This document shows positions 1,833 through 34,884 of a DNA stretch of 34,957 bases, in pieces (the stretch's first letter is position 1; each line of letters starts with the position of its first letter). The DNA comes from Alphaproteobacteria bacterium. Its GTDB lineage: Bacteria > Pseudomonadota > Alphaproteobacteria > Micropepsales > Micropepsaceae. A model generated the notes under the pieces. That model was given only the letters and a program-made list of their open reading frames with translations, was not told the origin of the DNA and ran no database searches. The position numbers and the translations under genes are program-made. Where the stretch lies: positions 1 through 34,957 of the forward strand of contig JAEUML010000037.1 of the NCBI GenBank assembly GCA_016792785.1, given 5' to 3'.

Positions 1833-1925
1833 ACCCGGCCTGCGACTGCTGGTAAATTGCACCGCATTCCATGGGGTGGGGCGGATCGTCATGAGCATTG
1901 TCGCTTATCTTGCCGTCGATTGCGG

Positions 1926-4900
1926 TTGAGTTCGGCCGTGCGCGTATTCGCGTTGCTCTTTGTCGCGGCCGCGGCGGTGTTTGCGCCGCACGCGCCTGTC
2001 GCGTCGGCGGCCGAACCTGCGACAGCCGCGCAAGACACGCGCAGCGACGAGCAGAAGCTGCTCGATCTCGTCGGCTTCCTGCGCCGCGACGGAAAGTTCG
2101 ACGAAGCGCGCAAGCTGGCGGAGAAAGGTCTTGCGATTGTCGAGAAGCACTGGGGCCCGGACAGCGAACGTGCGGCGCGCTGGCTGACGCAATTGGGGCT
2201 GACGCTTGCGGCGGAAGGGAAGTACGCGGAAGCGGAAGTTCCCTTGAAACGGGCGCTCGCGATCTACGAAAAGAAGTACGGACCGGATGCGGTGCAGACG
2301 GGCGAGGCGCTCGGCGATCTCGGCTCGCTCTACATGTTGCAGGGGCGTCTTGGCGAAGCCGAGCCGCTGTTGAAGCGGGCGCTTGCCGTCATCGAACGCG
2401 CGCGGGGCCCGGATCACGCCGATACGGCAAACGCGCTCACGAATCTGGGGCTTCTATACATGGCCCAAGCGCGGTTGAAGGAAGCGGAGCCACTGCTGAA
2501 ACGCGCTTTGGCCATCAATGAGAAGGCGAACGGCCCCGATCACCCCGACACCGCCACATCGTTGAACAACTTGGCTGAGGTCAATCGCGACCTTGGACGC
2601 TATGCGGAAGCAGAACCGCTATTGCGGCGGGCGCTTGCGATCGATGAAAAATTGAGCGGGCCAGATCATCCCGAAGTGGCGATCGTCCTCTCAAATCTCG
2701 CGTTGGTCTGTCAGTTGCAGGAGCGCTACGCGGAAGCAGAGTCACTCTATCGGCGGGCGCTGGACATCCGGGAGCGGGCGCTCGGTGATCATCGCGATAC
2801 CGCGGTGTCGCTCAGCAATCTCGCGTCGCTTCTCGTCGATCAGGGTCGATTTGACGAGGCGGAGCCGCTTTTGCGGCGCGCTCTTTCTGTTGTCGAGAAG
2901 GTGCTGGGTCCCAACCATTCGGATACAGGGCTCTATGCGAATGGTCTTGCTGTGCTTTATCGCGCGCTGGGCCGCCGCGACGAGGCACGAGGCCTGCTTG
3001 AGCGCGCGCTCGCGATCTTCGAACGGGCGCTCGGCCCCAATCATCCCTTCACGGCCACGGCGCTGAACAATCTGGGCGAGGCCTATCGGGATGACGGCCG
3101 CGCGGCCGAGTCCGAGACGATGTTCAAGCGTGCGCTCGCAATTCTCGGCAAACTCTATCCGGAGGATCACCCGCAGATCATTGCGACGCGGGCCAATCTC
3201 GGCGGCACCTATCTTTTCTCCAACCGCTACTCCCTGGCGGAAGCGGAGTTCCGCCAGACACTCGTCAGCCTCGAACGAACCTTACCGAGCGACCATACCC
3301 AGATCGGCATGGCGAACTATTGGCTGTCGCGCAGCCTGCTGGAACAATCGAAACCCGAGGAGGCGGCTTTGCGCGGCCGGCGCGCCGTCGACATCATCGC
3401 GGCCGCCAAGGCGCGGGCGGCGGCGCGCGTGCTCAGCGGCGGCTGGCAGGATCAGTTCGTCTACGATCACGTGTTCGACCTGCAAGTGCGCAACACGTTC
3501 GCGTTGTCGCTGAAGCGGCCGCAAGAGGCCGATGCACTGAGAGCGGAAGCGTTTGAGGCCGCGCAACGTGTCGCGTTCGACGACACAGCACGGGCGGTCG
3601 CGAACACGGCCGCTCGATTTGCAGCGAGACGGGACGGTTTGGCGCGACTGTTGCGCGAGCAGCAGGAGAAGATCAGCCAGCTCGCGGCGCTGGATCGGCA
3701 GCTCGCGAACGCTCTTGGTTCCAACCAGCCCGAAGTCAGGGCGCAAGCCGCAGCGCTCAGGCGCGATAGCGAAGTGATCAGCGGCCGGCTGCGCGAACTC
3801 GATGCCACGCTTCGGCGTGAGCATCCGGCCTACGGCGATCTCGCCATCCCGAAGCCTACGAGCGCTGCCGAAACTCAGTCGCTGCTCGGGCCCGATGAGG
3901 CGGTCGTCGTGTTCCTGACGCTTGAGGAAGCGACGGTGGTGTTTGCGGTTTCGAGCACGCAAGTCGGTTGGGCGGTGACGCCGGGACCGATTGCCGAGCT
4001 TTCGGAAAGGATCGCTACGCTTAGGCGGCAGCTTGAGCCAGACCGCTGGCAGTCGTCGATGATGCCGTTCGATCGGGCGCTGGCGCACCGGCTCTATCGC
4101 GATCTGTGGGCGCCGGTCGAAGGTGTCGTCAAGGACAAGGCGCAGGTGTTTGTCATCCCGACCGGGCCTTTGACGAGTTTGCCGCTGTCGGTGCTGGTCG
4201 CGGAGGCGCCGGCCGGCGGCGTTGCGGGCGATGCCGACCCGGCGGTGTTGCGCGAAACGGCCTGGCTTGCGAAGCGTCATGCGCTTGCGACGCTGCCTTC
4301 GCTCTCAAGCCTAAAAGCGTTGCGCGTCTATGCCGGAAGCAAGTCCGCGAGCGAGGCCTTTGCTGGGTTCGGCGACCCGGCGTTCGATGAGCGCATCGCG
4401 AGCAGGCAGGCGCCGCACGGTTCCGCTGAACCGCTGGCCGCGTCACCGGTCGACTTGCCGGTTCACCGATTCCCGTTGATCGGTTCGCCGCACACGTTTC
4501 TTCAGGGCGAGACGCGCCCCCGGCTGTCGCTGTCGCGCGGCGAGGGCTTCGATCTGCGTTTGCAAGGGACACAAACGCTGGCCGCGGTCGGCGGCACGGC
4601 TGCGCCATTGTCGCAAAAAGGAACCCGCAGCGTCGCCAGTCTGTTTCGCGGGACGGAGCCCAATCTCGACGAGCTCCGGCGTTTGCCGCCGCTGCCGGCC
4701 GCGGGCAACGAACTGCGCGCGCTTGCCAAGGCGCTCGGCGCGGCGGAGGGCGATCTCTATCTGCGCGAGCGCGCCACGGAGGCGCGGGTGAAGTCGCTCG
4801 ACTTGTCGAAGAAGCGGGTCATCGCGTTTGCGACGCACGGGATGATGGCGGGCGATCTGGGGCTCGGCGAGCCCGGGCTTGTGTTCACGCCGCCTTCGAC

Positions 4901-5282
4901 GGCGAGCGCTCTTGACGATGGTTATCTCGCAGCGTCGGAAGCGGCGGGTCTCAATCTCGCGGCGGATTGGATCATCTTGTCCGCGTGCAATACGGCTGCG
5001 GGCGATGTTCCGGGCGCGAAGGGTTTGTCGGGCCTTGCACGCGCTTTCTTCCTCGCGGGCGCAAAGTCGTTGTTGGTGTCGCATTGGTCCGTCTGGGACG
5101 ATGCCGCACAAAAGCTGACGACGGAAACCGTTCGGAACTTCCAAGCCAACCCGCAGGCGGGCCGTGCGCAAGCGTTGCGGCAGTCGATGCTTGCGCTGAT
5201 GAACGATCAGAGCGCGCCGCGCTTTGCGCATCCGGCGGCTTGGGCACCGTTTGTGCTCGCTGGCGAAACGCGCGCTCGCTAA
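1926..5282 (+). CDS. Exported TPR-repeat protein with C-terminal CHAT (caspase-like) protease domain
   Basis: Large TPR-CHAT protein (1118 aa from the TTG at 1926). Residues 1-29 look like a signal peptide: an Arg, a long Ala/Val/Phe core and an ASA-A type cleavage site. About ten kinesin-light-chain-type 42-residue TPR units (GPDHPDTA...LNNLA...EAEPLLKRALAI) fill roughly residues 45-510. A helical, coiled-coil-prone linker follows, and the CHAT domain (about 650-1115) ends the protein. The caspase/separase-type dyad is present: His971 in FATHGM and Cys1021 in LSACNTAAGD. The family contains peptidases activated through their repeat domains; whether this one cleaves proteins is inferred. The start is uncertain: TTG 1926, GTG 1938 and TTG 1857 are in frame and none has a strong ribosome site; 1926 and 1938 keep a clean signal peptide. 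The stop overlaps the convergent small gene by 4 bases. Confidence 0.88.
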   Translation: MSSAVRVFALLFVAAAAVFAPHAPVASAAEPATAAQDTRSDEQKLLDLVGFLRRDGKFDEARKLAEKGLAIVEKHWGPDSERAARWLTQLGLTLAAEGKYAEAEVPLKRALAIYEKKYGPDAVQTGEALGDLGSLYMLQGRLGEAEPLLKRALAVIERARGPDHADTANALTNLGLLYMAQARLKEAEPLLKRALAINEKANGPDHPDTATSLNNLAEVNRDLGRYAEAEPLLRRALAIDEKLSGPDHPEVAIVLSNLALVCQLQERYAEAESLYRRALDIRERALGDHRDTAVSLSNLASLLVDQGRFDEAEPLLRRALSVVEKVLGPNHSDTGLYANGLAVLYRALGRRDEARGLLERALAIFERALGPNHPFTATALNNLGEAYRDDGRAAESETMFKRALAILGKLYPEDHPQIIATRANLGGTYLFSNRYSLAEAEFRQTLVSLERTLPSDHTQIGMANYWLSRSLLEQSKPEEAALRGRRAVDIIAAAKARAAARVLSGGWQDQFVYDHVFDLQVRNTFALSLKRPQEADALRAEAFEAAQRVAFDDTARAVANTAARFAARRDGLARLLREQQEKISQLAALDRQLANALGSNQPEVRAQAAALRRDSEVISGRLRELDATLRREHPAYGDLAIPKPTSAAETQSLLGPDEAVVVFLTLEEATVVFAVSSTQVGWAVTPGPIAELSERIATLRRQLEPDRWQSSMMPFDRALAHRLYRDLWAPVEGVVKDKAQVFVIPTGPLTSLPLSVLVAEAPAGGVAGDADPAVLRETAWLAKRHALATLPSLSSLKALRVYAGSKSASEAFAGFGDPAFDERIASRQAPHGSAEPLAASPVDLPVHRFPLIGSPHTFLQGETRPRLSLSRGEGFDLRLQGTQTLAAVGGTAAPLSQKGTRSVASLFRGTEPNLDELRRLPPLPAAGNELRALAKALGAAEGDLYLRERATEARVKSLDLSKKRVIAFATHGMMAGDLGLGEPGLVFTPPSTASALDDGYLAASEAAGLNLAADWIILSACNTAAGDVPGAKGLSGLARAFFLAGAKSLLVSHWSVWDDAAQKLTTETVRNFQANPQAGRAQALRQSMLALMNDQSAPRFAHPAAWAPFVLAGETRAR

Positions 5283-6429: not shown

Positions 6430-6710
6430 TCAGGCGAGTTTTTCGGCGTGCCTGCAGCCTTGGCGGGAACTCGCGACCTGCCACAATTAGTACTTTGTTA
6501 AGACCTGGCCCCTAAGGTTTGACTCATTAGTAAGCCGGCTTCCCCAAGGCCGGTCACGAGTCCCCCGCCGGCCGAGTCGTCCCCCATTCATCCGGCTCTC
6601 CGGCAAAGTAGGCGGCCACGCAGCAACCCCCATTGCTGATGGGACCGGGCGTGGACGAACCCAGCGTCCACGCCCCCGCCTGTTTCTTGTTCCCGTCGTA
6701 TTTCAGGACC
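6430..6710. other. Non-coding stretch between tesB and the single-pass protein gene
   Basis: About 280 bases without a convincing gene. It holds a 7-bp inverted repeat just after tesB (GCGAGTT at 6434-6440, AACTCGC at 6468-6474, 27-base loop, no T-run, so not a clear terminator). It also holds the CtrA-like promoter element at 6487-6516 and a GANTC methylation-type site (GACTC) at 6521-6525. In-frame TTG 6633 and ATG 6639 could extend the next gene into this region. Confidence 0.5.
6487..6516 (+). promoter_or_regulatory. CtrA-like box and putative promoter for the single-pass membrane protein gene
   Basis: TTAG-N7-TTAA at 6487-6501 is one mismatch from the alphaproteobacterial CtrA consensus TTAA-N7-TTAA. 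The block CCCTAAG at 6510-6516 follows. Read as a promoter: -35 TTAGTA, an 18-base spacer, -10 CCTAAG. The arrangement matches 21 of 30 bases with the region upstream of the Flp pilin gene (14111-14140). A GACTC (GANTC, CcrM-type) site follows at 6521. Binding by CtrA is inferred from the motif only. Confidence 0.45.
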
Positions 6711-7364
6711 ATGTTAACGGCTGCAACCAGTCGTGGTCCCGTTCCCGTGCGCCCGGAAGACGCCCTTGCTTCGAGCTTTTCCGGCGCGTCTTCGCCGGGA
6801 CGGTTCGGCATGGCGTTTGGCGCTGCGGTCGTTCTGCACGTCGTTGCTCTGTGGGCGTTGGCGCATTCGATTTGGTTCGAGTTTCCGCTGGAGATTCGAA
6901 GCGAGCCGAAGATCGTCGCCGTCGCTGCGCGCCTGACGCCGCCGCCGCCGGATGTCGAGGCATTCGGTCCGGTCGATGTGATCGCCACCTTGCCGCGGTT
7001 CCGGCCGCGCGCGCCGGCGCTCGTACCGCAGCGGCAGAAGCGCGAAGGCGATCCGGCGCTCGCGATCTGGACTTATCTCTGCAACCGAGATGGCGAGCTC
7101 AGTACCGCGGCGCGCGTCGGCTGTCCGACAGATTTCGGCCTCGTTGACATGGGCCTGTTCGATCCGTTGAACCGTACCGGCGATGTCGGCGCGCTGTTCG
7201 GTGCGGACACGGCGACGATGTCGCTGGACGAGGCCGCCAAGAAGAAGGGCTGGCTCAAGCCGAAACCGGGATGGGCGGCCGACGGTGCGCGCGCCAAAGA
7301 CAGCAGCGTCGGGCCGGGTCACGATCCGTTCGTGTTTCTGCCCGGATACAAACCAATCAAGTAA
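6711..7364 (+). CDS. Single-pass membrane protein with Pro-rich periplasmic stalk (hypothetical, TonB-like layout)
   Basis: 217-residue protein with no recognised family. It has an N-terminal cytoplasmic part, one membrane helix at about residues 33-56 (rich in Ala/Val/Leu and ending in Trp-Phe), a Pro-rich segment (TPPPP at 76-80, then PRFRPRAP) and a C-terminal region with two cysteines (Cys124, Cys138) that could form a disulphide. The layout resembles TonB/TolA-like energy-transducing or stalk proteins, but no TonB C-terminal motif is visible. The ATG at 6711 is chosen because it leaves a short N-terminus; ATG 6639 and TTG 6633 are alternatives, and no ribosome site settles it. It ends 4 bases before the convergent receptor-like gene. 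Its upstream element resembles that of the Flp pilin gene, which suggests co-regulation. Confidence 0.7.
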   Translation: MLTAATSRGPVPVRPEDALASSFSGASSPGRFGMAFGAAVVLHVVALWALAHSIWFEFPLEIRSEPKIVAVAARLTPPPPDVEAFGPVDVIATLPRFRPRAPALVPQRQKREGDPALAIWTYLCNRDGELSTAARVGCPTDFGLVDMGLFDPLNRTGDVGALFGADTATMSLDEAAKKKGWLKPKPGWAADGARAKDSSVGPGHDPFVFLPGYKPIK

Positions 7365-7368
7365 GACT

Positions 7369-10023
7369 TCAGTGTGCGGCGGCGTGGCGTTGGCGCTCGG
7401 CGTCGCCCGCGCGCGCCAAGGCGGCGGCGATGTTGTTCAGCCGCTCGATCGATTCGAACACGGTGTGAATAGCGGCGTCTGACTTGCGTTGGTCGCCGTG
7501 TTCATCGGCCGCGCGCTCGGTCGGGCTCAAGCTGTCGCTGACGTCTTTGAAGCGTGCGGCCACGGCCGATTGGGCGAGGTGTTCTGCGCGCGTCTCCAGG
7601 CGGGCAATCAGCTGCACGAGGGCGTCGAGGTCGGCGGTCGCGGTGTCGACCGGCAGCGGCTCGGGCGGCGCTTCGTCGTAAGCGGCGGGTTCGGGCGCGT
7701 TCGCGAAGTAGGAGAAGAGCGACTCCGCGCGGGCGCCTAGGTCAATCGCCGCTTCGCGCAGGGCGGGACCTTCGGTGACGCCGGTCGACTGCGAGCGCGC
7801 CGCTATCGTGCGCAAGCCGCTTGTGATCGCGTGCAGCTCACCGCGCAGCGCTTCCGACGCGGGCGCGACCGCGGCTGCGCGGCTTTCGATTTCCTCCGCA
7901 TGGCGATCGAGCGCCTTGCCCATATTCTTCAGGCGCGCGGCGCGGTCGGCGTTGGCGGCGAGCTTCTTCACTTCCGCAGCAAAGGCGCCCAATGCGTCCT
8001 TCAGCGATTGCGTTTGATCGAAACGCGACTGCGCGGCGTTCATTTCGGCGGCGAGGTTCTTCAGGCGCGCCATGATCTCGTTGCCCGGCACGTCGGCGAG
8101 CGTCACGCGCTTCTGCTGGGGTTCGTCGACCGCCGCCTTGGCAGTGAGGAACGGCATGTCGGCGCCGGCGAGCAGGCGATCCTCCGTCAGACGCACTGCA
8201 AGGTCGCGGATTTCGGCGCGGATCGTGTCGGCTTGCGCCTGCAGCGCTTTCGCTAGGTCTTCGACGATCGGCGTCGGGGCTGCCGGCGCTGGGACGGCCG
8301 GTTTGTCGAGGTGTGCCGCGATGCGGTCGAGGCGCGCGATCGCTTCGGAAAGTTGGTTCTGCGTGGCTGCCGCTTCGCCCAGCGTGCGCTGGGCTGCGCC
8401 GACGGCTTGGACCGCTTGTGCGGACGATTCTTGGCGGACGGTCGCGTCGTCGCGGAACAGGCGCAGCACGTCTTCGAAGTCGGCGACCGATTTCGACATG
8501 CGCGCTTCGGCCTCTGCCGTGCGCTCGCCCAACGCACCCTCGGCGCTTTTCAATGCCGCGACCGTGTCGCCTGCGCGTTCGTGCAGCTTGGCCAGGATCA
8601 GCGTCAGATGCTGTTCCAGATTGTCGAGTGCGGTCAGTTTCTGCGTCAGGCGCTCGTCGGTCGTGCCGACAACGTCGCTCAAGCGGGCGGCAAGACTGCG
8701 AACCGTGTCGCCCGTGTTCGCGGCGTCGGACGAGATCTTGTCGCACGCGGCGAAGAATGCGCCTTGGATCGATTGGGCGTCGGTCGCGACGCGTTTCAGC
8801 GCGCCGCTGGCCGCGGAGAGTTTGCTTGCGGCGGCGGACGTCTTGTCGCGTGCGGCAGTGAACGACTGTTCGATCGCGCTGCCGGCGGCGCCGAGGTGGG
8901 CCGCGACCGCGTCGAGGCGCGAGGCGTGCTCGTTCGTCGCCGCGCCGAGTTTGGCGGTCGAGGCGCGGATGTCGGCAACGGCTGCGTTCGCTTCCGTGCT
9001 CAACGCCTTGGCGGCGTCGCCGAAGCCTGCGTTCGATTGCGCGAGCTTCTGCACGGTCGTTTCAAATTGGCGGCGGTTGTCGTCTTGGAGGCGCACGATG
9101 CCGTTCGATGCGTCTTTCAATGCATCGGTCGCTGAGGTGACGTCGGCGACGAGCCTTTCGAACAGGACAGACGCCTTGCCGTCGAGCGTTACGTGGATCT
9201 GGCCTTTCTCGGCCAGCGCTTTGAGTGCGCTCGTTTCGGCGAGGCCGCGGCGGACCTTTTCGCCGGCGCGCGCGAGGGCGCCGAATTCGTCTTTGCGCTC
9301 GGTGCCCCAGATTTTTTGACCGACGGCGCCGTCGCCGACCGAGCCCAGGCTGTGCTCCAACGCTTTCAGCGGTTGGATGATTCCCAATTGCAACAGTCCG
9401 GCGACGATCAATAGTCCAAGCACGATAAGAACGACGACGGCGATGACGAGGACTTGGCTCCAGTTCAACACCGACGCCGCGCCGCCCAGGCGATGCTCGA
9501 TGTTCGCCTGGCGCAAACGGTCAAGCGCGCTGCGCAAGGAAAGGTATGTGGCCTCGAGCTGCGGCGTTTGCGGCAGCGCGTTCAAGGCCTCCATGCCCGG
9601 GCTGCCACGCAACGCTGCGTCTCCCAATGCCGGGGCGATGCGGGAAATATGGGCGAAGGCCTCGGTGACTGCGGCGGCTTCGTTCAACGCGTCGCCCGCG
9701 AGCGGGTCGCCGGCGTAGAGCGCGCGCAGGGTGCTAAGGGCGTGGGCGGCTTTGGCGACGTCTTGGGCGAGGCGGGGCTTGGCCGCCGCGTTACCCGTCA
9801 GACGGTAGTTGCGATAGGTTTTGAGAAACCCGCCGTAACCCAATGATTTTTCTATATTTGCGATTGCGGCGCCGGCCTGGCGGTGGTGCGCGGCTGGGTC
9901 CTTTAGGTCGCGCTGAACTTCGCTGACGTAGCCGACGAAATACGCGCCGCCCACGATCAGGGCGGCGGCGACAATGGCTGCCGCCGCGCATAACGCGCGA
10001 CTGGTCGACGAAAGCGTGCGCAC
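7369..10023 (-). CDS. HAMP-domain membrane protein with long cytoplasmic coiled coil, chemoreceptor-like without signalling tip
   Basis: 884-residue protein from a GTG at 10023 with a GGGGG ribosome site. It has a first membrane helix at about residues 9-31, then a periplasmic helical sensor of about 155 residues that includes IEKSLGYGGFLKTYRNYRL (58-75), similar to the IGYGG-type four-helix sensors of chemoreceptors and cyclases. The second helix is at about 189-214 and a HAMP domain at about 212-262 (IIQPLKALE ... DEFGAL). The remaining 600 residues are Ala-rich heptad-type coiled coil. The conserved chemoreceptor hairpin tip (the E-x-Q-T-N-L-L-A-L-N-A type motif) is not found, and neither is a kinase, GGDEF or phosphatase domain. 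It may be a structural or signalling scaffold. The small gene upstream (10107-10334) is on the same strand, 83 bases away. Confidence 0.85.
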   Translation of the reverse strand: MRTLSSTSRALCAAAAIVAAALIVGGAYFVGYVSEVQRDLKDPAAHHRQAGAAIANIEKSLGYGGFLKTYRNYRLTGNAAAKPRLAQDVAKAAHALSTLRALYAGDPLAGDALNEAAAVTEAFAHISRIAPALGDAALRGSPGMEALNALPQTPQLEATYLSLRSALDRLRQANIEHRLGGAASVLNWSQVLVIAVVVLIVLGLLIVAGLLQLGIIQPLKALEHSLGSVGDGAVGQKIWGTERKDEFGALARAGEKVRRGLAETSALKALAEKGQIHVTLDGKASVLFERLVADVTSATDALKDASNGIVRLQDDNRRQFETTVQKLAQSNAGFGDAAKALSTEANAAVADIRASTAKLGAATNEHASRLDAVAAHLGAAGSAIEQSFTAARDKTSAAASKLSAASGALKRVATDAQSIQGAFFAACDKISSDAANTGDTVRSLAARLSDVVGTTDERLTQKLTALDNLEQHLTLILAKLHERAGDTVAALKSAEGALGERTAEAEARMSKSVADFEDVLRLFRDDATVRQESSAQAVQAVGAAQRTLGEAAATQNQLSEAIARLDRIAAHLDKPAVPAPAAPTPIVEDLAKALQAQADTIRAEIRDLAVRLTEDRLLAGADMPFLTAKAAVDEPQQKRVTLADVPGNEIMARLKNLAAEMNAAQSRFDQTQSLKDALGAFAAEVKKLAANADRAARLKNMGKALDRHAEEIESRAAAVAPASEALRGELHAITSGLRTIAARSQSTGVTEGPALREAAIDLGARAESLFSYFANAPEPAAYDEAPPEPLPVDTATADLDALVQLIARLETRAEHLAQSAVAARFKDVSDSLSPTERAADEHGDQRKSDAAIHTVFESIERLNNIAAALARAGDAERQRHAAAH

Positions 10024-10106
10024 TGATCCCCCGGCGGCCCCGCCGCCCGCGCTAATGATTCGTTCACGCAGTTTAAGGGACGGAGCGGGCCCGAGGCGAG
10101 TTGCCG

Positions 10107-10334
10107 TTACATCACGCGAGCGCGTTCAATGCGTTCGACGACGGCGTCGATGCGCGCCATGACGGCGCCCAAACGCAGGATCGCGGTTTCGTTCGCGCCG
10201 CGCCAAGCCGAGAGATGACGGCGCAACCCTGAGCTCAGCGCTTCGAGTTCGTCCACTTCGCCGTGAAGCGCGGGCGAGAAGTTCGCTTCGACTTTTTTTT
10301 GGTTCTTGGACGTCGTCGCGTGGGCGGTGGTCAT
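10107..10334 (-). CDS. Small helical protein (hypothetical)
   Basis: 75-residue protein of unknown function. A basic, Thr/Ser/Lys-rich N-terminus is followed by an amphipathic helical region (about residues 20-75) with charged heptads and RIDAVVERIERA near the end. There is no membrane segment and no cysteine. The ATG at 10334 is chosen because a purine-rich GGGAGAAGAAA tract lies upstream of it; the frame extends further upstream, but that extension runs into the terminator hairpin of the tadE-like genes. It is co-directional with the large HAMP coiled-coil gene downstream, so the two may be cotranscribed; both are helical. Confidence 0.6.
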   Translation of the reverse strand: MTTAHATTSKNQKKVEANFSPALHGEVDELEALSSGLRRHLSAWRGANETAILRLGAVMARIDAVVERIERARVM

Positions 10335-10354
10335 TTTCGTTTCTTCTCCCGCTC

Positions 10355-10394
10355 GAAAAAAAGCGTGCCGTCGAATGTCGATCGACGGCACGCT
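10355..10394 (-). terminator. Rho-independent terminator of the tadE-like operon
   Basis: Perfect 13-bp inverted repeat, AGCGTGCCGTCGA at 10362-10374 and its complement at 10382-10394, with a 7-base loop. On the minus strand it is followed by a run of seven T (10362-10356). It lies 37 bases beyond the stop of the second TadE-like gene, so it ends the minus-strand pseudopilin transcript. Confidence 0.9.
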
Positions 10395-10431
10395 AAACGC
10401 GACAGGTAAAGAGTGCGTAAGTTTCGCGACG

Positions 10432-10959
10432 CTATTGGCGCAACACCTGCGTCGATCGGCGCGGCTTCAAATAAAACGTGTCGCTCACCGTCATGCCGTC
10501 GGTGAGATACATGCCGAACAGCGTTTTGTAGGTGAAGCTCACTTCGGCCATAATGATCCCTTGGTTGTCGGGAACGATGTCGTCTGGGACCGTGATCGGC
10601 GATCCTTCCGAGTAGGCGGAGGTGTTGCGGGCATCACTCCACGCAACCGTGGTTTCACCGTCGGAATCGGCGACGACCGACGTGATGCGAACTTGCGCAT
10701 CGGCGGGATTGAACGGACGCAGGACCACGTCGAGCGCGCCCATGATGTCAGAAATTTCAGTGTCGTCGATCACTGTGTCCTGCGCGACAAGGTCGGCGGC
10801 GGCAGATGCGACGTTTGCAACTTTGCGCGCGGCCAGAATGTAGTTCGAGATTTCGGCGATGCCGAAGAATGTGGCCAACATGATAGGCAGGATCAGTGCG
10901 AATTCGATCGCGGACATGCCTCCGTCGGCGCGGCGAAAGCTCTTGAAGAACCGGTTCAT
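10432..10959 (-). CDS. TadE-like minor pseudopilin of the Flp/Tad pilus (second copy)
   Basis: 175-residue TadE-family protein. A basic N-terminus (MNRFFKSFRRADGG) precedes the conserved pseudopilin-type segment MSAIEFALILPIML, where the invariant Glu lies five residues after the likely Gly-Met junction. A hydrophobic helix then leads into an extracytoplasmic domain of about 130 residues. TadE/TadF proteins are processed by the prepilin peptidase and needed for Flp pilus assembly. The ATG at 10959 is chosen: it follows the stop of the first TadE-like gene by 11 bases and has AAGG at suitable spacing; a longer in-frame extension would overlap that gene. A strong terminator follows. It could equally be called TadF. 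Confidence 0.85.
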   Translation of the reverse strand: MNRFFKSFRRADGGMSAIEFALILPIMLATFFGIAEISNYILAARKVANVASAAADLVAQDTVIDDTEISDIMGALDVVLRPFNPADAQVRITSVVADSDGETTVAWSDARNTSAYSEGSPITVPDDIVPDNQGIIMAEVSFTYKTLFGMYLTDGMTVSDTFYLKPRRSTQVLRQ

Positions 10960-10970
10960 GGGCGCCGCCT

Positions 10971-11525
10971 TCAGTTGTTCAGGATCGAGCCGAACGGCTC
11001 GTTGCGGAATGCGATCGTCGCCTCGAGCAGGCGGTGTCCTCCGGCCATGTTGACGAACTGAGTGCCGACGGTCGGCGTCATCATGGGCCAGCTGTAGAAC
11101 GCGCGAACGACGACCACGTCGCCGGCCGCGCCCGGGTCGAAGGTCAAGTTGCCGGTCATGTTGCCGTTGCCGTCGAGGGCGGCCGGGAACTGCACGCCGC
11201 CGAAGCCCGAGTACTTGCGCACGTCGAGACCCAGGCGCGCGTCGCAACCGAGCAGCATCGAGATTTCGTTGCACACAAGCGTGCGGAACTGCGCCGCCGT
11301 CATATTGGCGGCCTGCGCTTGACCCGTACGTATTTGCCGCGCGGCCGCGACGAGGCCGTTTTCGAGCGTGGTCGACGCGAAGAAAATTAAGGCCACGTCG
11401 AAGATTGCGTAGAGCAGGAGAAAGAACGGCATCGCGACCATGGCGAATTCGACCGCGGTGGCGCCACCGTTCGCGCGCTTGAAACGGCTCAAGAACAGCA
11501 TCGTCCTCGGCATCATCAGAAGCAT
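10971..11525 (-). CDS. TadE-like minor pseudopilin of the Flp/Tad pilus (first copy)
   Basis: 184-residue TadE-family protein. The N-terminus is basic (RFKRANGG) and is followed by ATAVEFAMVAMPFFLLLYAI, the pseudopilin signature with Glu in the +5 region and a long hydrophobic helix (about residues 20-50). The extracytoplasmic domain carries two cysteines, in TLVCNE and LLGCDA. The ATG at 11525 has AAGGGAG six bases upstream. It is first in a two-gene minus-strand operon and divergent from the TadG-like gene across a 302-base promoter region. A role in pilus assembly is inferred from the family and the neighbouring cpa genes. Confidence 0.87.
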   Translation of the reverse strand: MLLMMPRTMLFLSRFKRANGGATAVEFAMVAMPFFLLLYAIFDVALIFFASTTLENGLVAAARQIRTGQAQAANMTAAQFRTLVCNEISMLLGCDARLGLDVRKYSGFGGVQFPAALDGNGNMTGNLTFDPGAAGDVVVVRAFYSWPMMTPTVGTQFVNMAGGHRLLEATIAFRNEPFGSILNN

Positions 11526-11827
11526 GACGCGCTCCCTTCCCGGTTCATCGCACGCGTCGCTTCAGGCGCACGCCGATCACCAAACGACAAGGCTCTATCA
11601 TCAACGGGTCGGCCCGTGAAGGTGATGTTCAAGTTACGCTGAATAATGTACTAACATTTGCACCCTGTTTCTTTGTGGCACAAATTTTCCTTTGTTACTT
11701 TATTCACTTCTTACTTGTCTCTTCATGTTTTCTTAAGTCCTGGAAACGCATTCTGTGCCCAAAGTGTGCAGAAGCTCGTTTCAACGGGCCGTCGTTTCGT
11801 CACGGGTACAAGGTAGGAGCGAAAGCC
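11526..11827. other. Divergent promoter region between tadE-like operon and tadG-like gene
   Basis: 302 bases without a gene, notably AT-richer than the surroundings between 11630 and 11750. It must hold promoters for both directions, but no unambiguous -35/-10 pair could be assigned. It contains a perfect 13-bp palindrome, TTTGTG-G-CACAAA, at 11672-11684. The plus-strand frame of the TadG-like gene stays open back to 11675, but the ATG at 11828 with its GGAG site is the better start. Confidence 0.5.
11672..11684. promoter_or_regulatory. Palindrome TTTGTGGCACAAA, possible operator
   Basis: Perfect inverted repeat of six bases around a single G, in the AT-rich divergent region between the tadE-like operon and the tadG-like gene. 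Its position suggests a dimeric regulator site serving one or both directions. No specific regulator is implied. Confidence 0.3.
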
Positions 11828-13324
11828 ATGTTGCGCTCGATCACGCGCGCTTTCAGCGCGGCGGCTCGGAAATTCCGGGCATCGGAAAAAGGCAATGTCG
11901 CGATGATCTACGCGCTTGCTTTGCTGCCGTCGATGGCGGCGGTAGGCTCTGCGGTCGATCTGACGCGTGCGATGGTCGTCAAGATGCGGCTCGGCGAGGC
12001 GCTCGACGCGGCGGGTCTCTCCGTCGGCGGCACCGTCGGTCTCAGCGGTCCGGAGATGACCGCCAAGGCGCAGAAATTCTTCTACGCCAACTATCCCGAC
12101 AATGAACTCGGCACAGTGACGGCGTTGACGGTCACTGCGTCGGGACAGAATCTTGTGACGGTTGCCGGCACCGCGCGCGTCGACACGGCGTTCATGGGCT
12201 TGTTCGGAATCACCTATCTCGACGTGTCGGTGAACGTCGAAGTGACGCGCGAGTCCAAGGGCCTCGAGATCGCGCTTGTGCTGGACAACACCGGTTCTAT
12301 GGCCTCGAACGGCAAGATCGGCGCGCTTCGGTCGGCCACGACCGAGCTCATCGGCATTTTGTTCGGCGATCAGAACACGCCGTCGCACTTGAAGATGTCG
12401 TTGGTGCCGTTCTCGCAGACGGTCAGGGTCGATACGGTGCAGTTCTTGAACAACGGCTGGATGGACACTCAAGGCTTGTCGCAGTACGCGCGGGTGAACT
12501 TCAACAACAACATGTATGCCTTCGCGGTTTGGCCAACGATGAGCAACAAGAGCTGGGGCGGCTGTCTGGAAGCGCGTCCGGCGGGCCTTGAAGAGACGGA
12601 CGATGCACCGGATGCGAGCGACCCGAACACACTGTGGGTGCCGTATTTCGAGCCGGACGGGCCGAACAACCCGCCGTATTCCGGGTACACGACTTACGTC
12701 AACGACGGCGTTACGGGCGACCAGGATACGCGCCTGAAGAACGCCGCGAAGTATATCGGGCAAAACAGAACGAACCCAAACAGCGACTGCAACATGCAGC
12801 GGATCCTGCCGCTGACGAACAACAAGTTGTCGCTGCAGAGCTACGTTTCGGGCATGATCTCGACCGGCTACACGCACATCGCGATCGGCGCCGCCTGGGG
12901 CTGGCGCACGCTGTCGCCGACGGCGCCCTATACCGAGGGTTCCGACTACGGCGATCCGGAGTGGACGAAGGCGATGGTGTTCTTGACCGACGGTTTGAAC
13001 ACGATCGACAGCAACGGCACCTGGCACCGGTCGAACTACACCGCGTACAACTACCTCATCCGCGGTACGCTCGGCACGACGAACGCGGCCACGGCCGAGG
13101 CCAACCAGGATACGCGTACGCGCACGGTTTGTACGCGCATCAAGGACGCCGGCATCCGCATCTACTCGATCTTGCTCGAGGAGGACTCGACGCGCGCGAA
13201 GAACCTTATGCGCGACTGCGCGAGCGATCCGTCGCTCTACTTCGAGTCGCCGACGTCGGCCGAATTGACGCCGGTGTTCCAAGCGATCGCGCAAGACTTG
13301 TCGAATCTGCGCCTCAGCCAATAA
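11828..13324 (+). CDS. TadG-like pilus assembly protein with von Willebrand factor A domain
   Basis: 498-residue TadG-type protein. An N-terminal membrane helix (about residues 24-46) lies in a TadE-like context (ASEKGNVAMIYALALLPSMA). A VWA domain follows from about residue 148 to the end. The metal-binding site is visible as D153-x-T155-x-S157 in LDNTGSM, and a second Asp is at 388 (FLTDG). A long insertion rich in Asn, Tyr and Gly (about 220-350) holds several cysteines, as in other TadG homologues. The ATG at 11828 is chosen for its GGAG upstream and the compact basic N-terminus; an open frame continues upstream but starts in the AT-rich promoter region. TadG is a Tad-locus protein thought to anchor or assemble the pilus at the envelope. 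A terminator follows. Confidence 0.88.
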   Translation: MLRSITRAFSAAARKFRASEKGNVAMIYALALLPSMAAVGSAVDLTRAMVVKMRLGEALDAAGLSVGGTVGLSGPEMTAKAQKFFYANYPDNELGTVTALTVTASGQNLVTVAGTARVDTAFMGLFGITYLDVSVNVEVTRESKGLEIALVLDNTGSMASNGKIGALRSATTELIGILFGDQNTPSHLKMSLVPFSQTVRVDTVQFLNNGWMDTQGLSQYARVNFNNNMYAFAVWPTMSNKSWGGCLEARPAGLEETDDAPDASDPNTLWVPYFEPDGPNNPPYSGYTTYVNDGVTGDQDTRLKNAAKYIGQNRTNPNSDCNMQRILPLTNNKLSLQSYVSGMISTGYTHIAIGAAWGWRTLSPTAPYTEGSDYGDPEWTKAMVFLTDGLNTIDSNGTWHRSNYTAYNYLIRGTLGTTNAATAEANQDTRTRTVCTRIKDAGIRIYSILLEEDSTRAKNLMRDCASDPSLYFESPTSAELTPVFQAIAQDLSNLRLSQ

Positions 13325-13346
13325 ACAAGGGCGTTCCAGACAAAGA

Positions 13347-13385
13347 AGAAGGCCCGGCAGGTGACTGCCGGGCCTTCTCGCTTTT
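13347..13385 (+). terminator. Terminator between convergent tadG-like and CpaC-N-like genes
   Basis: Perfect 14-bp inverted repeat, AGAAGGCCCGGCAG at 13347-13360 and its complement at 13365-13378, with a GTGA loop, followed by CGCTTTT. It lies 22 bases after the tadG-like stop. On the minus strand the stem is followed by TCTTTG, so it may also act for the convergent gene. Confidence 0.85.
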
Positions 13386-13407
13386 CGGGGGAATGAGTTG
13401 CGTGCGA

Positions 13408-13890
13408 TTACTTGCGCTGCGAAGAGAGTTCGGCGGCCTTGCTGGAGATCTCGACCTTGCGGTCGGCGTCTTGCGCCATTCCCTGCATCGCGAGGTCGCC
13501 CTGGGTGACGGTGCGTTCGCAGTGCACCGAGCATGCGAGGTTTTGCTGACCTGAGGGACCGCGATAAAGTGTGACCTGTTGCGACATCGGAGCGCCGACC
13601 GTCACCAGCGTGTTGATGACTTCGTTGCCTTCGCCGTCGATGGCGACGATGTTCGTGTTGCCGAACATGCGGCCCTGCACGTAAACGGTGCGATCGTTGA
13701 CCAGAAGTGCGTCCGCAATCGCGGCATTGCCGACGACGACCGTCTTTGCCGGGCGATCGAGACGAACCACCGTCGCCTGGTCATAATCGACGCGCATTTG
13801 CGGACGTTCGGCCGATTCATCGGCGCCGGCCGGCGCCGACAGAATGGTGAGCGCGGCTGCGGTCATGAGAGCGGCGCGGAAGGCGGTCAT
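13408..13890 (-). CDS. Stand-alone pilus-assembly (secretin N-terminal-like) domain protein
   Basis: 160-residue exported protein. The signal peptide is residues 1-23 (MTAFRAALMTAAALTILSAPAGA). The mature part resembles the N-terminal pilus-formation domain of CpaC: compare VVRLDRPAKTVVVGNAAIADALLVNDRTVYVQG here with the IIELPEDARDVLVSNPQVVDAVV region of the cpaC product in this window. A C-terminal extension carries two cysteines (NLACSVHCER) and a helical tail. There is no secretin domain. The ATG at 13890 has CGGAG seven bases upstream. It is convergent with the tadG-like gene and divergent from flp. A periplasmic accessory role for the secretin is inferred. Confidence 0.82.
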   Translation of the reverse strand: MTAFRAALMTAAALTILSAPAGADESAERPQMRVDYDQATVVRLDRPAKTVVVGNAAIADALLVNDRTVYVQGRMFGNTNIVAIDGEGNEVINTLVTVGAPMSQQVTLYRGPSGQQNLACSVHCERTVTQGDLAMQGMAQDADRKVEISSKAAELSSQRK

Positions 13891-14218
13891 GGCGTTCTCC
13901 GAGTGACGGTTCCCTGGTCGGGGAGGTTGGCGCAAAGCGATTAAGGATGTCTGAACCCTGAATACGGACGGCGTCCGGCGGAAGCTGTGCGAATTTGAAA
14001 CATAGCGGCGTTCGATGGTTCTGTTTTTCTTTTCTGTGCTAACTCAATGTTAGGGACGAACGTGTTTTTTCTATTGTGGATTGGCGGAATACCTCTCGAA
14101 TACAGCCGCTTTAATACTTCGTTAGGTGCGTCTCCCTAAGCTCCCCCTGTTTGCGCGAGCAGCTCGCTAGAAGCTGCGCGGGTAAACGGTGCAGTGGTGT
14201 CAATTGAAGGAGGCCTCA
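13891..14218. other. Divergent promoter region upstream of the Flp pilin gene
   Basis: 328 bases without a gene, AT-richer between 13990 and 14130. It contains the hyphenated palindrome CTAAC-N5-GTTAG (14039-14053), the CtrA-like element at 14111-14140 and a small hairpin in the presumed flp leader (GCAGCT around 14158-14163, AGCTGC around 14171-14176). The flp start has a strong AAGGAGG ribosome site. Confidence 0.5.
14111..14140 (+). promoter_or_regulatory. CtrA-like box and putative promoter of the Flp pilin gene
   Basis: TTAA-N7-TTAG at 14111-14125 is one mismatch from the CtrA consensus TTAA-N7-TTAA. CCCTAAG follows at 14134-14140. Read as a promoter: -35 TTAATA, an 18-base spacer, -10 CCTAAG, giving a leader of about 70 bases. 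In Caulobacter the pilin gene pilA is directly activated by CtrA, so the position fits. The same element occurs at 6487-6516. Confidence 0.55.
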
Positions 14219-14380
14219 ATGAGCCGCTTTGTAACTCGCTTTCTGAAAGACGAATCGGGCGCGACCGCCATCGAATACGGTCTGATCGCCGCTCTGATCG
14301 CCGTTGTGATCATCACCGCGCTGACGACCGTGGGTACGAACCTGACGGGTACGTTCACGGACGTCGCCGCGAAGCTCTAA
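14219..14380 (+). CDS. Flp/Fap-type pilin (major Tad pilin)
   Basis: 53-residue prepilin, the major subunit of the Flp pilus (pilA in Caulobacter). The leader is basic (MSRFVTRFLKDESG) and ends at Gly14; the prepilin peptidase should cut before Ala15. The mature N-terminus ATAIEYGLIAALIAV carries the invariant Glu19-Tyr20 pair of the Flp motif. The hydrophobic helix runs to about residue 40 and the tail is short. The ATG at 14219 has AAGGAGG six bases upstream. A dedicated strong terminator follows 45 bases after the stop, so the pilin is probably made from its own abundant short transcript, separate from cpaA and cpaB-tadC. Confidence 0.96.
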   Translation: MSRFVTRFLKDESGATAIEYGLIAALIAVVIITALTTVGTNLTGTFTDVAAKL

Positions 14381-32948: not shown

Positions 32949-33044
32949 GGGAGGTTGGCGGCGGGCGAGTCCCTCGCCAACCCGGTCAGGTCCGGAAGGA
33001 AGCAGCCGTAACGAGTTTCGGCTCGGGTCGTTCACCAGCCTCCC
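32949..33044 (+). ncRNA. ffs: Signal recognition particle RNA (4.5S, bacterial small type)
   Basis: 96-base SRP RNA that binds Ffh (protein SRP54) and directs membrane proteins to FtsY. The universally conserved core GGTCAGG-TCCGGAAGGAAGCAGCC, with its GGAA tetraloop, is at 32984-33007. The ends pair: GGGAGGTTGG at 32949-32958 with CCAGCCTCCC at 33035-33044. The size fits the small (about 100-base) Gram-negative form. It sits directly upstream of dnaX. Confidence 0.96.
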
Positions 33045-33050
33045 ACCTTT

Positions 33051-33070
33051 GCTCCCGCTTGCGCGGGAGC
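33051..33070 (+). terminator. Hairpin between SRP RNA gene and dnaX
   Basis: Perfect 8-bp stem, GCTCCCGC at 33051-33058 and GCGGGAGC at 33063-33070, with a TTGC loop, seven bases after the SRP RNA. Only TTCGGTG follows, so it is a weak terminator at best; it could be a processing or attenuator structure in the dnaX leader. Confidence 0.4.
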
Positions 33071-33105
33071 TTCGGTGGGCGCGGCCCACCAACGCGGATT
33101 CACGG

Positions 33106-34884
33106 ATGGCGAAGAAGGACAAGGGTTCGGACGCGGGCGCGGACGAACCGGGCCTCGGATTGACGGGCGGCGTGGCGAAGGGCGAGGGCGCCTATCGCGT
33201 TCTCGCGCGCAAATACCGGCCGCAAAATTTCGAGGACGCGTTCATCGGCCAGTCGGCAATGGTGCGCACGCTGGGCAATGCGTTCGCGAGCGGCCGCGTC
33301 GCGCATGCCTTTATGCTGACCGGCGTGCGGGGCGTCGGAAAAACGACGACGGCGCGCATTGTCGCCAAGGCGTTGAACTGCATCGGGCCCGACGGCAAGC
33401 GGGGCGAGCCCACGATCGCGCCCTGCGGCGTGTGCGAGCCTTGCCGCTCGATCGCCGAGTCCCGCCACGTCGACGTTTATGAAATGGACGCGGCCTCGCG
33501 CACCGGCATCGACGACATCCGCGAGATTGTCGAAGGTGTGCGCTATGCGCCGGCGGAGGCGCGGTTCAAGGTCTACATCATCGACGAAGTGCACATGCTG
33601 TCGAAGGCCGCGTTCAACGGTCTGCTCAAGACGCTGGAAGAGCCGCCGCCGCATGTGAAGTTCATCTTCGCCACGACCGAAATCCGCAAGGTGCCGATCA
33701 CGGTGCTGTCGCGTTGCCAGCGTTTCGATCTGAAGCGCGTGACGTTGGACGAGTTGGCCGCGCATCTCGCGTTCGTGTGCGAGAAGGAAAAGCAGCCGGC
33801 CTCCGACGCGGCGCTGCGCCTGATCGCGCGAGCGGCGGAAGGTTCGGCGCGCGATGCGCTGTCGCTGCTCGACCAGGCGTTCGCTCATGCCGGGGGGGCT
33901 GCGATCGAGGAAGAGCCAGTGCGGGCGATGCTGGGCCTTGCCGACCGCGGGCGCGGGCTTGAGTTGTTCGAGAAGTTGATGCGCGGGCAGATCGCAGAGG
34001 CGCTGAGCGAGTTTCGCGGACAGTACGATTCCGGGGCCGATCCGCTCGCCGTACTGCAGGACTTGACGCAGATCTGCCACGAGGCGACGCGCGCAAAGGT
34101 CGTGCAGGGTGCTGGCGGGGCGGCGGCCGAAGACGCGAAGAAGCTCGGCGAGATCGCGGGCAAGCTGACCGTGCCGCAGTTGGCGCGCACTTGGCAGCTT
34201 CTCTTGAAGGCATTGACCGAAGTGCAGACCGCGCCGGATGCGGCCGCCGCGACGGAGATGGCGTTGATCCGCATCGGCTACGCCGCGGAGTTGCCGCCGA
34301 CCGATCAACTCGTGCGGAGCGCGGGGTCCGCGCCTGCGGCATCGTCTTCACCGCGTGGCATCCAGGGGGCGTCACCACCGCCCGCGCCGCCGCCGTTGCG
34401 CATGACTGCGCGCGGTGAGCCCGCGGCGGCGGTGAGTGCGCCCGCGACGATTGCGGCGCCTGCCCCCGCCGGGCCGCGTGCGAGCGTTGCCGACTTGCGC
34501 GCCGTCGTGGCGCTCGCGCGTGACGCGCGCGAGGCGCGGCTTGTGCATGCGCTCGAGAACTGGGTCCATCTTGTGAAGTTCGAGCGCGGGCGGATCGAAA
34601 TTCGCCTGAACCCGAAAGCGCCGCCGGGGTTTCCCGGCGAGCTTTCCGACAAGCTCGCGAAGTGGACGGCTGAGCGGTGGGTCGTTTCGGTGTCGAGCGC
34701 CGAGGGTGAGGCCACGATCAGCGACCAGAACGAAGCGGCGGACCAAGCGCGGCGCGCTTCGGCGGCGCAGGACCCGCTTCTGAAAGCGGCGATGGCGGCG
34801 TTTCCGGGCGCGCGCATCGTCACCGTGCGCGACCGCGACGAATTCGCGAGCGAAACCGACAGCGAGACCAGCGAGGGGTCATGA
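33106..34884 (+). CDS. dnaX: DNA polymerase III subunit gamma/tau
   Basis: 592-residue clamp-loader ATPase that opens the sliding clamp and couples polymerases at the fork. The AAA+ module spans about residues 30-380: Walker A GVRGVGKTT with Lys79, the zinc-binding cysteines Cys92, Cys107, Cys110 and Cys113, Walker B IIDEVHML and the sensor/arginine-finger motif LSRCQRFD. A Pro/Ala-rich linker (about 415-470) leads to a C-terminal tau region (about 475-560) resembling the polymerase-contacting domain. The ATG at 33106 is chosen because the frame upstream lies in the hairpin after the SRP RNA; the ribosome site is weak. The stop overlaps the ybaB start (ATGA). No E. coli-type A-AAA-AAG slippery site is seen. 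Confidence 0.96.
   Translation: MAKKDKGSDAGADEPGLGLTGGVAKGEGAYRVLARKYRPQNFEDAFIGQSAMVRTLGNAFASGRVAHAFMLTGVRGVGKTTTARIVAKALNCIGPDGKRGEPTIAPCGVCEPCRSIAESRHVDVYEMDAASRTGIDDIREIVEGVRYAPAEARFKVYIIDEVHMLSKAAFNGLLKTLEEPPPHVKFIFATTEIRKVPITVLSRCQRFDLKRVTLDELAAHLAFVCEKEKQPASDAALRLIARAAEGSARDALSLLDQAFAHAGGAAIEEEPVRAMLGLADRGRGLELFEKLMRGQIAEALSEFRGQYDSGADPLAVLQDLTQICHEATRAKVVQGAGGAAAEDAKKLGEIAGKLTVPQLARTWQLLLKALTEVQTAPDAAAATEMALIRIGYAAELPPTDQLVRSAGSAPAASSSPRGIQGASPPPAPPPLRMTARGEPAAAVSAPATIAAPAPAGPRASVADLRAVVALARDAREARLVHALENWVHLVKFERGRIEIRLNPKAPPGFPGELSDKLAKWTAERWVVSVSSAEGEATISDQNEAADQARRASAAQDPLLKAAMAAFPGARIVTVRDRDEFASETDSETSEGS

Follow-up and report, generated by a model that had tools for sequence, protein, structure and literature searches.

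The window (the whole stretch of DNA that was analysed, 34,957 nucleotides) carries tesB, a putative small RNA gene, an optional single-pass protein, an opposite-strand coiled-coil gene, tadE, tadG, flp and cpaA-F, in that order. Upstream of tesB lies a gene for a TPR-CHAT protein of 1141 aa (1857–5282, + strand), with no close copy at that place in the relatives examined, and towards the other end of the window a bacterial small SRP RNA (RF00169, 54.9 bits) was found at 32950–33046 on the + strand, directly before a dnaX-like gene (33049–34884). The features between tesB and flp that concern this study are the following.

6487–6501, + strand: CtrA-type box TTAGTACTTTGTTAA of the putative RNA promoter; columns TTA, TTTG and TAA show little or no variation across 12 genomes
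6510–6516, + strand: -10-like element CCCTAAG; C-T-A kept 10–11 nt from the box in 12 genomes
6525–6686, + strand: predicted structured small RNA, modelled over 162 positions (covariance models R1/R2); 182 bits in its own genome
6711–7364, + strand: single-pass protein of unknown function, an optional neighbour of the RNA
7369–10023, - strand: membrane/coiled-coil protein, convergent with the RNA, a candidate target
10027–10032, - strand: the G-run GGGGGA, complementary to UCCCCC in the RNA, immediately before the GTG start codon of the coiled-coil gene
14111–14140, + strand: promoter of the flp pilin gene, made up of a CtrA-type box and a -10-like element; the half-site (G)TTAR is conserved near -108 in relatives
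14219–14380, + strand: Flp pilin gene, first of the tad cluster (Pfam Flp_Fap, 5.4e-22)

An earlier note on this DNA had described a Flp pilin and an unknown protein at 6711–7364, both of which are present (the pilin with the Flp_Fap match listed above), and a 30-bp element shared by the regions upstream of them. The two copies of the element, TTAGTACTTTGTTAAGACCTGGCCCCTAAG at 6487–6516 and TTAATACTTCGTTAGGTGCGTCTCCCTAAG at 14111–14140, are identical at 21 of 30 positions (13/16, 1/7 and 7/7 in its consecutive parts). Shuffling the window gave an expectation of 0.00 matches for the joint pattern, and when the whole genome (3,955,106 bases, 383 contigs) was scanned with a relaxed pattern the two copies were the only sites without mismatch; a third site in the same scan of 3.96 Mb, situated on another contig, has three mismatches. 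Both elements consist of a CtrA-type box, TTAR-N7-TTAR, followed by a -10-like CTAA. The spacing between box and -10 element is too short for an ordinary -35/-10 pair and so fits an activator sitting over the -35 region, which is the arrangement given for most CtrA-activated promoters in the abstract of PMC11264516. A simple terminator and promoter scan gave no match, its T-run and sigma-70 rules being stricter than the features present.

When the RNA promoter was compared among relatives the box was found in 12 genomes (the genus and G016) as TTA(G/A)-N7-(T/G)TAA, followed after 10–11 nt by a C(C/T)TA-like element, while in G018 the geometry of the box is not kept. At flp the second half-site and the -10 element are kept at about -108 from the start codon and the first half-site varies. 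The GANTC site noticed at 6521 exists as GACTC (6521–6525) but is retained in only a few of the relatives examined, and a CcrM site was rejected as a conserved part of the promoter. Behind the -10-like element the start of transcription is inferred to lie near 6523. The predicted 5' end of the RNA carries TTAGTAA (6527–6533), which repeats TTAGTA of the box and is kept in most of the genus.

CtrA is encoded in the genome (G000:C206:31220) and is 85% identical to the C. crescentus CtrA sequence used as query. GcrA is also encoded, with a perfect TTAA-N7-TTAA box upstream of its gene (C177:11213). Upstream of ctrA itself (G000:C206, before 31220) the sequence GATTAAGCTTTGTTAAACATTACCACTTAGATTCG combines a CtrA-type site with a -10-like element behind it, is conserved in the genus and is probably an autoregulated promoter; the site is TTAA-rich and its -10 spacing is similar to that of the two elements in the window. 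The box at 6487 is one mismatch away from the ideal TTAA-N7-TTAA, its first half-site being TTAG instead of TTAA throughout the genus, which could mean that another response regulator binds there and that the likeness to a CtrA site is coincidental. This is quite improbable given the same architecture before flp, the TTAA-rich site before ctrA and the perfect box before gcrA. The form of a CtrA-activated promoter, as earlier suggested, is borne out at both elements by box and -10 architecture, by conservation and by the presence of ctrA and gcrA, and we judge it likely, without having computed a figure, that CtrA controls the promoter at 6487.

The earlier note had taken this promoter to mark the protein at 6711–7364 as a member of the CtrA regulon. 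When the upstream regions of homologues of the protein were analysed, about 165 bases behind the box turned out to be nearly identical in the relatives, and this conserved block has the properties of a structured RNA. Its elements are given below.

6535–6553, + strand: hairpin H1 with loop CCCCA at 6542–6546; 4/5 outer pairs changed on both sides
6562–6566, + strand: single-stranded linker CCCCC (within GUCCCCC); unpaired probability 0.95–0.99 in the G005 copy
6567–6604, + strand: hairpin H2 with loop UCCCCCAUUCAUC at 6580–6592; 98.5% of cells paired, three pairs changed on both sides
6610–6681, + strand: closing helix AGGCGG/CCGCCU enclosing H3 and H4; pairs nearly invariant, which is consistent with the helix without proving it
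6621–6638, + strand: hairpin H3 with loop CCCCCA at 6627–6632; 4/6 pairs with changes on both sides
6647–6675, + strand: terminal hairpin H4 with ACCCA in the loop; 11 pairs, 100% paired, six of them changed on both sides

H4 is followed by a U-rich tail at 6683–6689, and the 3' end of the copy in G018 reads CCGCCTTTTTT. The fold of the window copy has a z of -3.8, and for the G005 copy the ensemble prediction gives the C-runs of H1, the linker, H2 and H3 unpaired probabilities of 0.91–1.0. On the model alignment 18 of 41 pairs are changed on both sides, a number that none of 500 shuffles reaches, with a covariation score of 0.302 against 0.135 ± 0.015 in the shuffles; when the partner was slid at most four such pairs appeared, and the share of cells that pair fell from 96.7% to about 40% with the partner shifted by one base. 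A plain MAFFT alignment has 13 pairs changed on both sides, and this is the safer count, since the model alignment, unlike the plain one, was fitted to the structure. The alternation of U-G, U-A and C-G in H2 indicates that the + strand is the one that acts as RNA. A protein-coding origin of the block was discarded, as its indels are not multiples of three and its changes are compensatory. No Rfam family matched the window copy or four homologues above the gathering score. That the block encodes a small RNA is by our own judgement, not by calculation, nearly certain, and this RNA, as far as the sequences tell, is previously unrecorded.

The DNA of the block is 79–95% identical in ten relatives and 69% identical over part of the copy in G016. 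A DNA search detected it in every one of the 11 genomes of the genus and, as a weak match, in one additional genus, and a search with the covariance model added a third genus, giving 13 genomes (11 of the genus, G016 and G018) with one copy each. No copy was found by the model in the other 83 of 96 genomes of the order, in a search with strict filters and 30 candidates scored per genome, so that remote copies may be missed. A second, partial match in G008 (E 0.06, beside a tRNA-like stretch) was taken as chance. An exact-pattern search of 84,980 species genomes returned 52 stretches, ten of them in genomes already known to carry the RNA; eight others were scored with R1 (four were also inspected) and gave no convincing copy, the best E being 0.79, and the remaining ones, mostly from Actinobacteria and other distant phyla, are presumed to be chance matches.

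An alternative reading of the block is a cis-acting 5' leader, an attenuator or riboswitch of the protein at 6711–7364, and in six genomes (G000, G009, G002, G005, G007 and G010) the protein does follow the RNA at a short distance and on the same strand. In five others (G001, G003, G008, G016 and G018) the RNA is present without an adjacent protein, and in the first four of these the next gene is convergent; in G001 and G003 a distant homologue of the protein is encoded on a separate contig, with different surroundings and without a box. The protein also evolves much faster than the RNA (homologues 33–64% identical, against 79–95% for the RNA DNA) and the 3' end of the RNA is a terminator-like hairpin, so that a leader is highly improbable. 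That the box marks the protein, which has no Pfam or NCBIfam match, as a regulon member is not supported, a structured RNA lying behind the box and persisting in five genomes where the protein is not adjacent; as target of the promoter the protein is either mistaken or secondary. Since the RNA is kept where the protein is absent it stands alone, and since no homologue of the protein and no tesB turned up near the RNA of G018 (where the contig stops before flp) it is neither the leader of the one nor the tail of the other. The conserved product of the 6487 promoter is, from sequence comparison, the RNA, and if the protein gene is transcribed along with it, this would happen by read-through.

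The C-runs of the RNA direct attention to G-runs near start codons. The ctrA leader has GGGG near the start codon, and its ribosome-binding site, GCGAGGGGAGA, is identical in all eight genomes, G016 among them, in which the start of ctrA could be read (G007 was left out of the count, as its match began inside the gene and the sequence is not leader). Among 529 genes of a 540-kb contig, called by a simple procedure of our own, the core GAGGGGAG precedes only one, ctrA, while GGGG precedes the start of 15.5% and GGGGA that of 6.2%. A scan of duplex energies did not single out ctrA, which ranked between 63 and 235 of 529 depending on the loop. In the gcrA leaders no GGGG is conserved ahead of the start; the start itself reads ATGGG in most genomes, with GGG(G) following the AT of the ATG.

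A second candidate is the convergent gene at 7369–10023, whose product of 884 aa contains a very long coiled coil and two stretches that probably lie in the membrane, and belongs to no confident family. The place of the gene between the RNA and the tad genes is conserved in relatives, and GGGGA occurs within 22 bases before its start in 8/8 orthologues, a feature of only this one of 45 syntenic groups and of 7.6% overall, although the significance is post hoc as the G-run was noticed before the test; in G001 and G003 the G-run is further from the assigned start. A longer complementary site was tried and rejected: 17 nt at about 527505–527522 of G005:C2, directly before a gene for a zinc-ribbon-like membrane protein, are complementary to the linker of the RNA and gave no match among the other genomes that were searched. 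For the H2 loop, complements gave many scattered matches, above the reversed control in 7/7 genomes, and no conserved site was established among the minority that were followed up. The G-runs may simply be strong Shine-Dalgarno sites. Pairing of the RNA with them is plausible, somewhat above even by our uncomputed judgement, and ctrA and the coiled-coil gene are each a possible target, judged in the same way at somewhat below even.

The RNA adjoins the tad/flp locus wherever the contigs permit a check, a neighbourhood conserved in at least two genera and probably in three. It could thus be that the RNA chiefly regulates the mRNAs for pilus assembly and not the cell cycle, as the conserved GGGGA at the coiled-coil gene and a GGGG at cpaA in 4/9 would also allow. 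Most tad genes are without a G-run and the linkage may be plain synteny, and we regard a chief role in pilus assembly as rather unlikely.

Taken together, the observed conservation, structure, stand-alone position, promoter architecture and G-runs in candidate sites are best read as a CtrA-activated, stand-alone and trans-acting small RNA that pairs with G-run ribosome-binding sites, with those of ctrA and the coiled-coil gene as candidates, a reading to which we give a probability of roughly 0.55. The element at 6487 would be the promoter of this RNA, located between tesB and the tad pilus locus, and CtrA~P would act on its box as at the flp promoter. The transcript would start near 6523, end at about 6690 after the H4 hairpin and expose CCCC or CCCCC in three hairpin loops and one linker, and these C-runs would pair in trans with G-runs of ribosome-binding sites. 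The most likely targets would be the ctrA mRNA, giving feedback on the regulator, and the mRNA of the neighbouring coiled-coil gene. The transcript, its activation by bound CtrA, its pairing and the direction of its effect are what we infer. More tentatively, the RNA may represent a new CtrA-driven family with multiple C-loops, placed by the tad locus in at most three genera and of an origin independent of the Caulobacter RNA CcnA, with feedback on ctrA translation and a link between the cell cycle and the membrane coiled-coil protein beside the tad locus.

To our knowledge only a small number of RNAs have been described for the CtrA circuit. In Caulobacter the RNA CcnA has a promoter with a CtrA box, and its CCCC loop contacts GGGG in the leaders of ctrA and gcrA (PMC8959179). 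The RNA described here resembles CcnA in having a box of the CtrA type some 20 nt upstream of its presumed start, a length of about 165–180 nt, a predicted exposed CCCC loop and a G-run in the ribosome-binding region of ctrA. It differs in being located beside the tad locus and not at hemE and the origin, in having three C-loops and a C-linker as against the single Loop A described for CcnA, and in gcrA, where no conserved GGGG precedes the start. Box position (about -22, against -23 in CcnA), length (182 nt in CcnA), CCCC loop and G-run of the ctrA leader could even suggest a direct orthologue of CcnA, relocated from the origin. CcnA however overlaps the origin beside hemE, while here hemE is on other contigs or, in G018, about 370 kb away, R1 has no match in the 4-kb hemE loci and the model none in the 83 other genomes of the order, which makes direct orthology unlikely. 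On paper the RNA thus works like CcnA, compared by description and not by sequence, while the test for CcnA by location failed.

Regulation by C-rich single-stranded loops is also a feature of the PmaR sRNA of Agrobacterium tumefaciens, which is spoon-like with one large loop and has other targets, the part of the source at hand (PMC6234868) mentioning no CtrA box. The flp promoter resembles that of Caulobacter pilA, where a CtrA-type site lies at about -35 before a Flp-type pilin; one box was identified for flp while several upstream sites are described for pilA in the title and abstract of PMC11264516. The reading of the locus is corrected here, the conserved product behind 6487 being an RNA and not the unknown protein. 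In the case of CcnA a deletion was not possible, given its overlap with the origin (PMC8959179). An RNA of CcnA design located away from the origin could be deleted, which would open the proposed tuning of CtrA translation by C-loop RNAs to a direct test.
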